From assembly GCF_034387475.1 (NCBI RefSeq), contig NZ_JAXCIL010000002.1:1550001-1614000 (forward strand): a stretch of 64,000 nucleotides of DNA, in the 5' to 3' direction. Below the pieces are notes generated by a model that ran no database searches, had not been told where the DNA came from, and was given only the letters and a program-made list of their open reading frames with translations. Shown in pieces: positions 53,179-61,093 of this stretch. This stretch comes from Pseudomonas sp. Teo4. GTDB lineage: Bacteria > Pseudomonadota > Gammaproteobacteria > Pseudomonadales > Pseudomonadaceae. Position 1 is the stretch's first letter. Each line of letters opens with the position of its first letter. The position numbers and the translations under genes are program-made.

Positions 53179-53853
53179 ATGCAGCCCTACGCTATTGCCC
53201 CCTCCATTCTCTCCGCCGATTTCGCCCGTCTGGGCGAGGACGTCGACAAGGTGCTGGCCGCCGGGGCCGACATCGTTCACTTCGATGTCATGGACAACCA
53301 TTACGTCCCCAACCTGACCATCGGCCCGATGGTATGCACCGCCCTGCGCAAATACGGCGTGACCGCGCCAATCGACGTGCACCTGATGGTCAGCCCGGTC
53401 GACCGCATCATCGGCGACTTCATCGAAGCCGGCGCCACTTACATCACCTTCCACCCGGAAGCCAGCCAGCACATCGACCGTTCGCTGCAGCTGATCCGCG
53501 ACGGCGGTTGCAAAGCCGGCCTGGTGTTCAACCCGGCCACCAGCCTGGATGCGCTGAAGTATGTAATGGACAAAGTCGACATGGTCCTGCTGATGAGCGT
53601 GAACCCAGGTTTCGGCGGGCAGAAGTTCATCCCCGGCACCCTCGACAAGCTGCGCGAGGCCCGCGCCCTGATCGATGCCAGTGGTCGTGACATCCGCCTG
53701 GAAATCGACGGCGGCGTCAACGTCAACAACATCCGCGAGATCGCCGCCGCGGGTGCCGACACCTTCGTTGCCGGTTCGGCAATTTTCAACGCGCCGGACT
53801 ATCAGGAAGTCATCGCCAAAATGCGCGCCGAACTGGCCCTGGCCCGCCCATGA
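53179..53853 (+). CDS. rpe: Rpe, ribulose-phosphate 3-epimerase
   Basis: A 224-residue TIM-barrel enzyme that interconverts ribulose-5-phosphate and xylulose-5-phosphate in the pentose phosphate pathway. Metal ligands lie in [17 protein letters not shown] (about 34-50), and catalytic Asp residues there and in LEIDGGVN (about 175). The loop [15 protein letters not shown] is typical. Overlaps gph by 4 bp. Confidence 0.97.
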
Positions 53854-54668
53854 GTGGCTTCGAGCAGCTGTTCCCGGGGGCGCTACCCAGGCTGGTGATG
53901 TTCGATCTGGACGGTACCCTGATCGACTCCGTCCCCGACCTGGCCGCTGCTGTGGATCGCATGCTGCTCGAACTCGGGCGCCAGCCCGCTGGCCTCGACG
54001 CGGTGCGCCAGTGGGTGGGCAACGGCGCCCAGATACTGGTACGCCGTGCGCTGGCCGGCAGTATCGAGCATGAAGGTGTCGATGACGCACTGGCCGAGCA
54101 AGGGCTGGCGCTGTTCATGGAAGCCTATGCCGAAAGCCATGAGCTGACCGAGATCTACCCCGGTGTGAAGGACACCCTGCGCTGGCTGCGCAAGCAGGGC
54201 GTTGAGATGGCGTTGATCACCAACAAGCCCGAGCGTTTCGTCGGTCCGCTGCTGGACCAGATGAAGATTGGCCGATATTTCCGCTGGATCATCGGCGGCG
54301 ACACCTTGCCCCAGAAGAAGCCAGACCCGGCTGCACTGCTGTTCGTCATGAAGATGGCGGGCGTTACCCCTGAGCAGTCACTGTTCGTTGGCGACTCGCG
54401 CAGCGATGTGCTGGCGGCCAAGGCGGCAGGGGTGAAATGTGTCGGCCTGACCTATGGCTACAACCATGGCCGACCGATTCATGACGAATCACCCAATCTG
54501 GTGGTCGACGACCTGCGCGCCTTGCTGCCTGGTTGCGCAGACCCGGCCACTGGGATAACGTTGGCGGACCTTCAAGCCTCACAAGACAGAGAGTCCACCG
54601 TGGCGGTTACTGGCAAATTCTGGATGAAAGTCATCAAGGCCCTGGCCCGTTGGCGCTGGCGCGCCTGA
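53850..54668 (+). CDS. gph: Gph, phosphoglycolate phosphatase
   Basis: A 272-residue HAD-superfamily phosphatase that removes 2-phosphoglycolate, a DNA-repair and oxygenation by-product. HAD motifs are in order: [10 protein letters not shown] (about 19-28), ITNKPERF (about 124), KKPDP (about 156) and FVGDSRSDV (about 178). The protein is about 45 residues longer than the conserved domain. Its last 14 residues ([14 protein letters not shown]) are in frame with, and identical to, a tryptophan-rich leader peptide for trpE, so gph ribosomes also translate the leader. Confidence 0.93.
54600..54668 (+). promoter_or_regulatory. trpE leader peptide region, embedded in the 3' end of gph
   Basis: In the gph frame, a GTG (54600, behind GAGAG) or ATG (54624) could start a leader of 22 or 14 residues ending ALARWRWRA, with Trp codons at 54651 and 54657. 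Attenuation of trpE and trpGDC has been reported in P. putida. A near-identical peptide precedes trpG. Trp starvation would stall ribosomes at these codons whether they came from gph or from an internal start. Confidence 0.75.
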
Positions 54669-54677
54669 CTTCTGCCC

Positions 54678-54693
54678 GCCGGCGCCTGCCGGC
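54678..54693 (+). promoter_or_regulatory. Hairpin after the trpE leader
   Basis: GCCGGC-GCCT-GCCGGC, 9 nt after the leader stop and 45 nt before trpE. The matching position in front of trpG has GCCGG-CAAGT-CCGGC. There is no T run, so it is not a classic terminator; it may be part of an attenuation or translation switch. Confidence 0.45.
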
Positions 54694-54738
54694 CCGTCCG
54701 CTTGCCCGACCCTATTGCTGCTTGCCACGAGGCTACCC

Positions 54739-56217
54739 ATGACCCGCGAAGAATTCCTGCGCTTGGCCGCTGCCGGCTACAACCGCATTCCCTTGGCCTG
54801 TGAAACCCTGGCCGACTTCGACACGCCGCTGTCGATCTACCTGAAACTGGCCGACCAACCCAATTCCTACCTGCTCGAATCGGTGCAGGGCGGCGAAAAG
54901 TGGGGCCGTTACTCGATGATCGGCCTGCCATCGCGCACCGTCATGCGAGTGCACGGCTACCACGTCAGCATCCTGCAGGATGGCGTCGAGGTGGAAAGCC
55001 ACGATGTCGAAGACCCACTGGCGTTCGTCGAAACCTTCAAGGACCGCTACAAGGTTGCCGACATTCCTGGCCTGCCACGCTTCAACGGCGGCCTGGTCGG
55101 CTACTTCGGCTATGACTGTGTGCGCTATGTGGAGAAGCGTCTGGGCGCTTGCCCGAACCCGGACCCGCTGGGCGTACCGGACATTCTGCTGATGGTGTCC
55201 GACGCAGTGGTGGTGTTCGACAACCTGGCGGGCAAGATGCATGCGATCGTGCTGGTAGACCCGGCTGAAGAGCAAGCATTCGAGCAGGGCCAGGCGCGCC
55301 TGCAAGGCTTGCTGGAAACCCTGCGCCAGCCGATCACGCCACGGCGTGGCCTGGACTTGAGCGGCCCTATGGCTGCAGAGCCGGAGTTCCGCTCCAGCTA
55401 TACCCGTGACGACTATGAGAACGCGGTGGGGCGTATCAAGGAATACATCCTGGCGGGCGACTGCATGCAGGTGGTGCCGTCGCAGCGGATGTCCATCGAC
55501 TTCAAGGCCGCACCCATCGACCTGTATCGTGCGCTGCGTTGCTTCAACCCGACGCCGTACATGTACTTCTTCAACTTTGGCGACTTCCATGTGGTCGGCA
55601 GCTCGCCAGAAGTGCTGGTGCGAGTCGAAGACAACCTGGTCACCGTGCGCCCGATTGCCGGTACCCGCCCGCGTGGTGCCACAGAGGAAGCCGATCGTGC
55701 GCTGGAAGACGACCTGCTGTCGGATGAGAAAGAGATCGCCGAGCACCTGATGCTCATCGACCTGGGCCGCAACGATGTGGGCCGCGTGTCCTCGACCGGT
55801 AGCGTGCGCCTGACCGAGAAGATGGTGATCGAGCGTTATTCCAACGTCATGCACATCGTGTCCAACGTCACCGGCCAGTTGCGCCAGGGCCTGACCGCCA
55901 TGGATGCGTTGCGGGCGATCCTGCCGGCCGGCACCTTGTCTGGCGCGCCGAAAATTCGTGCGATGGAGATCATCGACGAACTGGAGCCGGTCAAGCGTGG
56001 CGTTTACGGTGGTGCGGTGGGTTACTTTGCCTGGAACGGCAACATGGACACCGCCATCGCCATTCGTACCGCGGTGATCAAGGACGGCGAACTGCATGTG
56101 CAGGCCGGTGGTGGCATTGTTGCCGACTCGGTGCCGGCGCTTGAGTGGGAAGAGACCATCAACAAGCGCCGGGCGATGTTCCGGGCTGTGGCGTTGGCTG
56201 AGCAAACGTCCAAATAA
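54739..56217 (+). CDS. trpE: TrpE, anthranilate synthase component I
   Basis: A 492-residue enzyme that converts chorismate and ammonia (from TrpG) to anthranilate, the first step of tryptophan synthesis. The Trp feedback-binding motif LLES is in [11 protein letters not shown] (about 43-53). The chorismate-binding domain contains [19 protein letters not shown] and the catalytic GGGIVADS stretch near the C terminus. The ATG at 54739 with CGAGG upstream gives the conserved N terminus; an ATG eight codons earlier lacks a site. It lies 4.4 kb from trpGDC, the split arrangement of pseudomonads. Confidence 0.97.
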
Positions 56218-58228: not shown

Positions 58229-58373
58229 GGGTAGATATCCTTTTCATTGTTTTTATGGGAACAGCCCGATTGACCTTAACAAAGCAAAGGTCTTTGTTCA
58301 CAAGTCCATTCGTTACCCCGTGTTTACGGGCATATTGCGCCAGGCGCCCCGGTAAGCTACTGTGCCGGGACGT

Positions 58374-58460
58374 ATGAGCGAGACCTATCCTGTGTTGATC
58401 GTCAGCAAACTCTTGATGCGCGTAATCAAGGCCCACGCCCGTTGGCGTTGGCGCGCCTGA
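58374..58460 (+). promoter_or_regulatory. trpGDC leader peptide
   Basis: A 28-codon frame from ATG 58374 (GGGA just upstream) or a 14-codon frame from ATG 58416 encodes a peptide ending HARWRWRA. Its last 14 residues differ from the trpE leader at two positions only (MRVIKAHARWRWRA against [14 protein letters not shown]). After the stop there is a short T run (58462-58466) and the hairpin GCCGG-CAAGT-CCGGC (58472-58486). The layout fits tryptophan attenuation of trpGDC. The rest of the 58229-58610 gap holds the estP promoter region. Confidence 0.8.
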
Positions 58461-58610: not shown

Positions 58611-59204
58611 ATGTTACTGATGATCGACAATTACGACTCATTCACTTACAACGTTGTTCAGTACCTTGGCGAGCTGGGTGCCGAGGTCAAGGTCATTCGC
58701 AACGACGAATTGACCATCGCCGAGATCGAAGCCCTTAAACCAGAGCGCATCGTCGTGTCTCCCGGCCCATGCACGCCGAGTGAGGCGGGCGTGTCGATCG
58801 AGGCCATCCTGCATTTCGCTGGCAAGCTACCAATTCTGGGCGTCTGCCTGGGGCACCAGTCCATCGGCCAGGCATTCGGCGGTGATGTGGTGCGGGCGCG
58901 CCAAGTGATGCACGGCAAGACCAGCCCGGTGCGGCACCGCGACCTGGGCGTGTTCGCCGGTCTCAACAACCCGCTCACCGTGACCCGCTACCATTCCTTG
59001 GTGGTGATGCGCGAAACCTTGCCCGACTGCCTGGAAGTGACCGCTTGGACCGCCTTCGAGGACGGCTCGGTCGACGAGATCATGGGCGTGCGCCACAAGA
59101 CGCTTAACATCGAGGGTGTACAGTTCCACCCCGAGTCCATTCTCACCGAGCAGGGCCACGAGCTGTTCGCCAATTTCCTCAAGCAGACCGGCGGCCACCG
59201 CTAA
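58611..59204 (+). CDS. trpG: TrpG, anthranilate synthase component II (glutamine amidotransferase)
   Basis: A 197-residue class I amidotransferase that supplies ammonia from glutamine to TrpE and may also serve 4-amino-4-deoxychorismate synthesis. The catalytic Cys is in [15 protein letters not shown] (about 79), with His and Glu in [12 protein letters not shown] (about 169). N terminus [20 protein letters not shown] is typical. First gene of trpGDC, behind a Trp-rich leader. Confidence 0.97.
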
Positions 59205-59213
59205 GGACCGAAC

Positions 59214-60263
59214 ATGGATATCAAGAGCGCGTTGAGCCGTATCGTCGGCCACCTGGACCTCAGCACCGAGGAAATGCGTGATGTCATGCGCCAGATCATG
59301 ACCGGCCAGTGCAGCGAGGCGCAGATCGGCGCCTTCCTGATGGGCATGCGCATGAAGAGCGAGAGCATCGACGAGATCGTCGGTGCGGTTTCGGTGATGC
59401 GTGAACTGGCCGACAAGGTCGAACTGAAAAGCCTCGATGGCGTGGTCGATATCGTCGGTACCGGGGGCGATGGCGCCAACATTTTCAACGTTTCCACCGC
59501 ATCTTCCTTCGTCCTTGCGGCGGCGGGCTGCCCGGTGGCCAAGCATGGTAACCGGGCCGTCTCCGGCAAGAGCGGCAGCGCCGACCTGCTGGAAGCCGCT
59601 GGGGTTTATCTGGACCTGAACCCGACTCAGGTCGCTCGCTGCATCGACAGCCTCGGCATTGGCTTCATGTTCGCCCAAAGCCACCACAAGGCAATGAAAT
59701 ATGCCGCCGGCCCGCGCCGTGACCTGGGTCTGCGTACCCTGTTCAACATGCTCGGCCCGCTTACGAATCCGGCCGGTGTGAAGCACCAGGTGGTCGGCGT
59801 GTTCACCCAGGCCTTGTGCCGCCCACTGGCTGAAGTGTTGCAGCGTCTGGGCAGCAAGCATGTGCTGGTGGTGCACTCGAAGGACGGCCTGGACGAGTTC
59901 AGCCTGGCCGCGCCGACTTTCGTGGCCGAATTGAAGAATGACCAGATCACCGAGTACTGGATCGAGCCTGAAGACCTCGGCATCAAGAGCCAGAGCCTGC
60001 ATGGCCTGGCAGTCGAAGGGCCGGAAGCCTCGCTGGCGCTGATTCGCGATGCATTGGGCCGACGCAAGACTGAAAACGGGCAGAAAGCTGCCGAAATGAT
60101 CGTACTCAATGCGGGCGCGGCACTGTACGCCGCAGACCACGCAATGAGCCTGAAGGCGGGTGTGGAACTGGCCCACGACGTCCTGCACACCGGGCTGGCC
60201 TGGGAGAAGCTGCAGGAGCTAGGCGCCTTTACGGCGGTATTCAAGGTGGAGAACGAAGCATGA
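59214..60263 (+). CDS. trpD: TrpD, anthranilate phosphoribosyltransferase
   Basis: A 349-residue enzyme that joins anthranilate to PRPP. The phosphate-binding [17 protein letters not shown] (about 83-99) and [19 protein letters not shown] (about 110-128) motifs are intact. It starts 9 bp after trpG and overlaps trpC by 4 bp, so the three are co-translated. Confidence 0.97.
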
Positions 60264-61093
60264 GTGTGCCGACGGTGCTGGAAAGGATCATCGCCCGCAA
60301 ATTCCAGGAAGTGGCCGAGCGCAGCGCGCGCGTGAGCCTCGCCGAGCTGGAGCGCCTGGCCAAATCGGCTGATGCGCCGCGAGGCTTCGCCAACGCCCTG
60401 ATCGAACAGGCAAAGCGCAAACAGCCGGCGGTGATTGCCGAAATCAAGAAAGCTTCACCGAGCAAGGGTGTGATCCGCGAGAACTTCGTGCCGGCAGAGA
60501 TTGCCGTCAGCTACGAAAAAGGTGGCGCGACCTGCCTGTCGGTGTTGACCGATGTGGACTACTTCCAGGGTGCTGATGAGTATCTGCAGCAGGCGCGTGC
60601 CGCTGTTTCGCTGCCAGTGATCCGCAAGGACTTCATGGTCGATCCGTACCAGATCGTCGAGGCCCGTGCCCTGGGTGCCGATTGCGTGCTGCTGATCGTG
60701 TCGGCGCTGGATGACGTGAAAATGGCTGAATTGGCCGCCACGGCCAAGGATGTCGGCCTCGACGTCCTGGTCGAAGTGCACGACGGCGATGAGCTGGAAC
60801 GTGCCTTGAAGACGCTCGATACGCCGCTGGTGGGGGTCAACAATCGTAACCTGCACACCTTCGAGGTGAGCCTTGAGACCACGCTCGACCTGTTGCCGCG
60901 TATTCCGCGTGATCGCCTGGCCATTACTGAAAGCGGCATTCTCAACCGTGCCGACGTCGAGCTGATGGAAATCAACGAGGTCTACAGCTTCCTGGTAGGC
61001 GAGGCGTTCATGCGCGCCGAGCAGCCTGGGCTTGAACTGCAGCGGTTGTTCTTCCCGGATCAGATCAAGAAGACTGTTCAGCAACTGGACTGA
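60260..61093 (+). CDS. trpC: TrpC, indole-3-glycerol-phosphate synthase
   Basis: A 277-residue TIM-barrel enzyme that closes the indole ring. The catalytic Lys lies in [20 protein letters not shown] (about 55-74), a second in [11 protein letters not shown] to [12 protein letters not shown] (about 115-130), and [12 protein letters not shown] supplies the phosphate site. It is the single-function form, not fused to TrpF. Last gene of the operon, with a strong terminator 8 bp on. Confidence 0.97.

Follow-up and report, generated by a model that had tools for sequence, protein, structure and literature searches.

In Escherichia coli, TrpL is encoded by a short open reading frame (ORF) before the trp gene, with two Trp codons a few codons ahead of its stop, and the ampC promoter is nested in the end of the preceding frdD gene. 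For Pseudomonas putida, Olekhnovich and Gussin reportedly described attenuation at both trpE and trpGDC in 2001. The locus analysed here lies in a 64,000-nt stretch of the genome of Pseudomonas sp. Teo4 (the window) and can be compared with each of these. Like E. coli TrpL, the leader ORF before trpE has two Trp codons just before its stop, and the RNA from that stop to trpE is folded. Unlike TrpL, it begins with GTG, encodes 22 residues with Arg between the Trp codons, and sits in frame within the end of another gene, gph; no strong U-run terminator was found, and an Rfam search of positions 53800–55000 gave no trp leader match up to an E-value of 5, three sub-threshold matches being to unrelated families. 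As in the ampC/frdD case, a downstream promoter (here putative) and regulatory RNA lie inside the preceding coding end, but in the present locus the upstream gene, in addition, reads the regulatory peptide in its own frame and so includes it in its protein. Both the genes and the organism group are those of the attenuation reported for P. putida, and the trpE attenuator of Olekhnovich and Gussin is very likely this very element.

A further point of comparison comes from a figure legend in PMC8297930: in a Pseudomonas, RNA 3′ ends were seen to form prematurely ahead of trpGDC, beside a GTG leader, and the prediction held, by the same legend, only in azithromycin-treated biofilms. A GTG leader with adjacent 3′ ends matches the trpG leader of the window; the relevant passages of that paper mention neither the trpE leader nor gph. 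No description of a join between gph and the trpE leader was found in the literature searched, including passages of PMC8297930 and PMC2965389, an absence that is not itself proof of novelty.

Table 1. Features of the gph–trpE and trpG regions (positions in the window)
Feature	Position	Strand	Basis or remark
rpe, ribulose-phosphate 3-epimerase	53179..53853	+	Pfam PF00834, 9.4e-88; 4-nt overlap with gph start
gph ORF, phosphoglycolate phosphatase, 272 aa	53850..54668	+	ORF list, PRK13223.1; 3′ end is the trpE leader
Gph body, residues 16–226	53895..54527	+	PF13419 16–199, TIGR01449 16–226
Linker, residues 227–250, read through by gph	54528..54599	+	Codon-position changes, pLDDT
Putative −35 of trpE promoter, TTGCGC, inside gph	54533..54538	+	TTGC in 125/125 fused unique loci
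Putative −10 of trpE promoter, TAACGT, inside gph	54556..54561	+	TAACGT in 103/125, TAATGT in 16/125 fused loci
trpE leader ORF (TrpL), GTG start, 22 residues	54600..54668	+	GTG conserved in 189/189 unique loci
Long-range RNA helix, 5′ arm, GGCAA	54612..54616	+	Permutation test; present in MFE
TGG CGC TGG, two Trp codons of RWRW	54651..54659	+	Unchanged in all 125 fused and all 53 never-fused loci, by construction (loci anchored on TGGCGNTGGCG, RWRW)
Hairpin P2, GCCGGC-GCCT-GCCGGC	54678..54693	+	9 nt past leader stop
Long-range RNA helix, 3′ arm, TTGCC	54702..54706	+	Pairs with 54612–54616; present in MFE
trpE, anthranilate synthase component I	54739..56217	+	TIGR00564, 575 bits
Promoter-like TTGCGC-N17-TACTGT before trpG leader	58335..58363	+	Sequence
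Paralogous leader ORF before trpG, GTG start, VLIVSKLLMRVIKAHARWRWRA	58392..58460	+	52/69 nt identical to trpE leader; no adjoining gph
trpG	58611..59204	+	Followed by trpD 59214–60263 and trpC 60260–61093

The initial annotation had read gph and the Arg-Trp-Arg-Trp leader as one frame, and the ORF does run stop-free into RWRW, the trpE leader ORF forming the final 69 nt of gph with zero stops between the two. Since gph and the leader are one open frame, a ribosome that completes gph must, as had also been claimed, read the Trp codons. Because rpe overlaps the start of gph and trpE comes next, every transcript from upstream must traverse the leader. By its full-length score above a curated cut-off, the product is assigned to the Gph phosphoglycolate phosphatase family: the NCBIfam model PRK13223.1 (272 positions) matches residues 1–272 and scores 557 bits, the cut-off being 466. 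In other Gph models (PRK13222.1-2, -4, -1, TIGR01449) the match ends at residue 226–230, and Gph of non-fused genomes also stops near residue 226, at 225–239 aa in most free genomes. As PRK13223.1 spans the tail, the tail is a feature of the family and a sequencing slip is excluded; fusion to the leader accounts for the approximately 46 residues by which PRK13223 extends beyond the ends of generic bacterial Gph models.

To compare leaders, loci were anchored on RWRW, and those without the anchor (L159, L171, L184, L191) were excluded from later counts. After removal of duplicates there were 189 loci, 125 of them fused (gph open into the leader) and 64 free. One of the excluded loci, L159 (group g3), has a gph of 261 aa that closes with a stop overlapping the start of trpE, so that no RWRW anchor separates the two. 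Within the leader of the window, the GTG occupies 54600–54602, an ATG 54624–54626 and the stop 54666–54668; Trp codons in the leader frame begin at 54621, 54651 and 54657, and the trpE ATG is 70 nt past the stop shared by gph and leader. An in-frame GTG lies 14–24 codons before RWRW in every one of the 189 unique loci (in L068 the homologous GTG sits further upstream). The ATG (position −9) first taken as the start gives a leader that is probably too short, and it is missing in 9 of the 189. Since the GTG is universal and the ATG is lost in nine loci, the leader most likely comprises 54600–54668 and is initiated at the GTG, whose use had previously been no more than a guess.

The joined state is widespread in the genus. 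Of 149 genomes searched, 148 had a Gph match, and in 125 of these the match aligns to residue 271 or 272 without an internal stop. In the other 23, gph ends early or out of frame, and all 23 retain the leader, in frame 0, 1 or 2 relative to gph in 5, 8 and 10 genomes, respectively. A frameshift in or before the linker separates gph from an intact leader in L037, L038, L039 and L047, as also in L210; in the remaining 19 of the 23, gph ends at 226–239 residues. The pattern for which the initial annotation had suggested looking across Pseudomonas, a leader always in frame, thus holds in 125 genomes and fails in 23, the leader being kept in all. Related species with a leader out of frame had been named there as part of what would refute the coupling, and on this sequence part the outcome goes against it. 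The 60 free unique loci with gph show leader frames 0, 1 and 2 in 13, 18 and 29 cases, and no gph was found in L201, L202, L206 and L207 within the approximately 1.25 kb retrieved ahead of trpE. Other genera, too, have the leader free-standing, in any frame. Among the named loci all 80 are of the fused type, but this set is the best 80 of 451 and is biased, one search pattern having been KFWMKVIK from the tail. Other phosphatase-like matches in the same genome as the window (L002–L007) were left out of the counts. In two loci there are peculiarities of record. L043 (G051:C1:1591760-1592572) has a second partial Gph match (query 60–272) at 1593239–1593874, approximately 0.7 kb behind, which may represent a tandem copy or an assembly error in a genome listed with 9% contamination; L108, titled Pantoea sp. 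Ap-967, carries a gph–leader locus with a Gph 90% identical to that of the window and seems misnamed.

The leader itself is distributed far more broadly. Among 60 family loci selected through their trpE, of which 15 are fused, 56 carry RWRW ahead of that gene and four lack the anchor; RWRW is present in 206 of 210 Pseudomonadaceae loci, a set biased towards fused ones. In other families of the order, an ORF with W-R/K-W no more than 10 residues from its stop and no more than 170 nt from trpE was found in 19 of 39 loci (40 were fetched, and L229, in which no trpE start was found, was dropped), whereas the controls gave 0 (reverse strand), 1 (a stretch further upstream) and a mean of 0.045 (shuffled sequence). 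By this wide spread, the leader appears to be older than its join with gph. In a gph tree of 183 sequences, rooted on an arbitrary free row (L209), a single clade of 130 takes in the fused and the broken rows, and the fused label needs five changes, four of them forced by strongly supported branches. In a smaller tree (119 of 184 rows, near-copies of fused loci dropped, L190 as outgroup), the group of fused and broken rows has an SH-aLRT of 88. These trees fit one gain of the join and three to four losses by frameshift, L047 and L210 perhaps representing one event.

The linker is the site of a promoter-like element and of the stretch preceding the leader start. In all 125 fused loci the two putative boxes are separated by 17 nt (TTGC-N17-TAAYGT-like), and a similar element (TTGN-N17/18-TANNNT) lies upstream of the leader in 57 of the 64 free loci; as each site is the best pattern fit for its locus, these counts show conserved position and spacing rather than activity. 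Assignment was weak or failed in 7 of the 189 loci, all free (L162–L166, L201, L202). A plain consensus promoter scan at the gph–trpE locus reported none, and the site emerged by comparison only. Comparison in this way backs the internal promoter that had been guessed from the window. With respect to this element, the gph stop of 55 free loci lies upstream in 31, in the −35 box in 9 (L053, L054, L062, L160, L161, L172, L183, L192, L209), in the −10 box in 12 and downstream in 3. The 12 comprise L193–L200, L203 and L204, together with L038 and L039, which are broken descendants of the fused clade. In several free loci gph ends at the TGA of GGTTGATT, where fused loci mostly have GGTTGC. A stop-to-Cys change in the −35 box, TGA to TGC in GGTTGATT, is thus the simplest reading of how the join may have arisen.

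A second leader precedes trpG in the same window (Table 1). Its distance from GTG to RWRW, 17 codons, equals that of the trpE leader, and its region also has a hairpin and a GTTTGC element resembling those of the trpE leader. An EstP esterase gene (NCBIfam NF041609, 56339–58228) occupies the opposite strand between the two trp genes. A DNA pattern for RWRW followed by a stop has five matches in the same genome, compared with none for the reversed control pattern; two of the five are the trpE and trpG leaders, and the others (L257, L260, L261) fall outside the window. Such a leader is present before 13 of 30 trpG loci (the best 30 of 55 genomes with a match). In 14 of the other 17, trpG directly follows trpE. 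L272 has trpG apart from trpE and shows no leader over 450 nt, the contig of L273 ends within the locus, and for L284 no place of trpE is given.

Between the leader and trpE, a hairpin is a nearly constant element of the RNA. The strongest hairpin begins 7–12 nt beyond the stop codon of the leader in 179 of the 189 loci (a count without shuffled control), a hairpin is found in 187 of 189 when starts are restricted to 4–14 nt past the stop, and there are 38 different types of stem. In addition, the GCAAAC region of the leader can pair with GTTTGC directly 3′ of the hairpin. Because the 3′ arm of this helix shifts between groups, it was tested alignment-free: over 128 distinct pairs, arms gave 15.1 with their own partners and 13.7 with permuted ones, none of 2000 permutations reaching as high, although the permutations ignore relatedness and the weight rests on the separate compensatory types. 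The latter include GCAAAC/GTTTGC, GCACAG/CTGTGC, CACACAC/GTGTGTG and GCAAGC/GCTTGC; the GGCAA/TTGCC form of the window is found in 31 of 187 loci. In the window's minimum free energy (MFE) fold the Trp-codon region is paired in place of the hairpin, and when a wider stretch was offered, pairing of the same 5′ arm with the 3′ side of the hairpin scored best.

Global folding measures gave no such signal. Taken as a whole, the leader region is no more stably folded than its shuffles (z −1.25, 23 of 200 shuffles as good). RNAalifold, run on 128 leaders aligned with MAFFT, returned almost no consensus structure, because the positions of the loops and of the 3′ arm differ from group to group. An alignment of 48 leaders had the 3′ arm misaligned in the putida group and hence yields no pair counts. 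No intrinsic terminator (hairpin plus U-run) was found in 53800–54800, and a run of four or more T downstream of the leader occurs in only 18 of 122 fused loci; we therefore claim attenuator-like working without placing the element in the classical intrinsic-terminator type. Pairing of the leader start (CGTGG, approximately 54599–54603) with the trpE ribosome-binding region (CCACG, approximately 54726–54730) was seen in the MFE folds of several loci. It is not claimed here, because many loci disrupt it and L174/L175 alone show a clear matching change on both sides.

Comparison of sequences across loci thus establishes the anatomy of the leader, its conservation, selection on its peptide (below), the covariation of its helix and the existence of free-standing relatives. 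Together these features make it probable, in our judgement, that TrpL is a ribosome-sensed Trp attenuator with a nested promoter-like site and its own GTG, and that the union with gph is secondary. Control by stalling is suggested by the anatomy of the leader and by the attenuation reported for trpE and trpGDC in P. putida. When Trp is short, a ribosome would stall on TGG-CGN-TGG and trpE would be expressed; when Trp is plentiful, the ribosome would finish the leader, and premature 3′-end formation, probably by a route other than a strong intrinsic terminator, would lower trpE expression. The ancestral layout may have been of the type seen in relatives, with the gph stop before or inside the −35 or −10 box of the putative leader promoter. 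One clade would then have lost the gph stop, so that gph came to stay open across the leader and to share its stop codon; Gph would thereby have gained a disordered 46-residue tail, and ribosomes reading through gph would also read the Trp codons.

The peptide may also act in itself, by nascent-chain arrest of the ribosome or as a peptide in trans, with its amino acids under selection. In 102 gapless fused loci, changes at first, second and third codon positions number 808, 492 and 3620 in the Gph body (third-position share 0.74) and 17, 17 and 73 in the leader (0.68). Over leader codons −9 to +4, the corresponding changes are 19, 5 and 64 in 125 fused loci and 13, 12 and 56 in 53 never-fused loci. 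The last 14 residues are nearly constant despite third-position changes, and K-A-L-A-R-W-R-W-R is nearly invariant in fused and never-fused leaders alike. The third-position excess in never-fused leaders points to selection on the peptide even outside Gph. A trp leader peptide acting in trans has been reported in Sinorhizobium meliloti (PMC7298713). At the same time, part of the leader doubles as an RNA pairing arm, and leaders of the wider order have only W-R/K-W in common, both of which weigh against a peptide that acts through its other residues. We regard an acting peptide as conceivable but doubtful; it would be compatible with the attenuator, which remains our main explanation.

A different question is whether the fusion with gph is itself a functional device, in which gph ribosomes sense Trp, Gph output is tied to Trp supply and the frame is selected. 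The join is in frame in 125 of 148 genus genomes, within one deep clade, and read-through of the one shared open frame must cross the leader. Length changes between the −10 box and the GTG bear most directly on the frame. The fused clade has 4 frame-changing events (tree length 14.6) and the free genomes have 16 (tree length 9.85; p = 0.0004), which makes them approximately six times rarer per tree length in the former, and frame-keeping events number 5 in each (p = 0.54); compared as proportions, frame-changing and frame-keeping events differ with p = 0.12. For this comparison 48 of the 53 free tree rows were entered, promoter assignment having failed or been weak in the rest. One of the four fused events falls between L038 and L039, after loss of the frame, leaving three without this pair; the break in L038/L039 itself lies upstream of the −35 box and hence outside the count. 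The rarity of frame-changing indels in the fused clade allows weak selection on the frame, and is the best evidence for coupling; it is suggestive that keeping the frame matters in this clade.

In its most novel form, such coupling would make the upstream enzyme the sensor in the fused clade: gph ribosomes would replace leader initiation on read-through transcripts, with the frame selected and KALARWRWR acting beyond its Trp codons as a nascent chain or free peptide. We think this unlikely; if true, a single C-terminus would be at once enzyme tail, regulator and sensor. A fusion that works as a sensing device is, in our estimate, also unlikely. The 23 genus genomes without the join all keep the leader, three to four lineages broke the frame, free leaders occupy all frames, and the trpG leader has the same layout without gph. 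Nor does the linker show a third-position excess: in the same 102 loci its residues 228–250 have 159, 96 and 145 changes at first, second and third positions (third-position share 0.36). Outside the promoter-like element (117, 61, 100) second positions change least, so that the linker is not plainly neutral. The coupling of Gph to Trp sensing, which the initial annotation had put forward as a function, is on this evidence a real reading event that is not required and is at most weakly selected.

The tail could instead serve the Gph protein, in binding, in location or as a C-terminal degradation signal. Its last 14 residues are highly conserved, and an AlphaFold model built on a 44-sequence alignment predicts a helix at residues 258–271, mostly with pLDDT below 50. 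The same residues, however, are conserved in free leaders outside Gph, and Gph ends at 225–239 aa in many other genera. The model places the Gph body mostly above a pLDDT of 85, and residues 231–259 and 265–272 fall below 50, so that the last 46 residues look like a loose, disordered appendage. With a linker that lacks third-position excess and a tail mostly at such low pLDDT, the tail looks incidental to Gph, and a role in the enzyme is very improbable. That the long frame is an annotation accident, with gph ribosomes rarely reaching its end and the RWRW likeness incidental, is hardly credible, given a frame without stops in 125 of 148 genomes, a deep open-frame clade and an incidence of W-R/K-W close to trpE that, across the order, greatly exceeds chance.

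Under the preferred reading of TrpL as an attenuator secondarily joined to gph, the locus shows how a preceding gene can engulf a regulatory leader and its putative promoter after loss of a stop codon that overlapped the promoter. A whole clade would have inherited an enzyme with a leader as its tail, and natural revertants allow comparison. The fused, broken and free states that occur in nature provide material for asking whether translation of the upstream gene drives attenuation. The interest of the locus lies in this evolutionary capture of a leader by the gene upstream of it, and in the hint that, once captured, its frame may have been kept.
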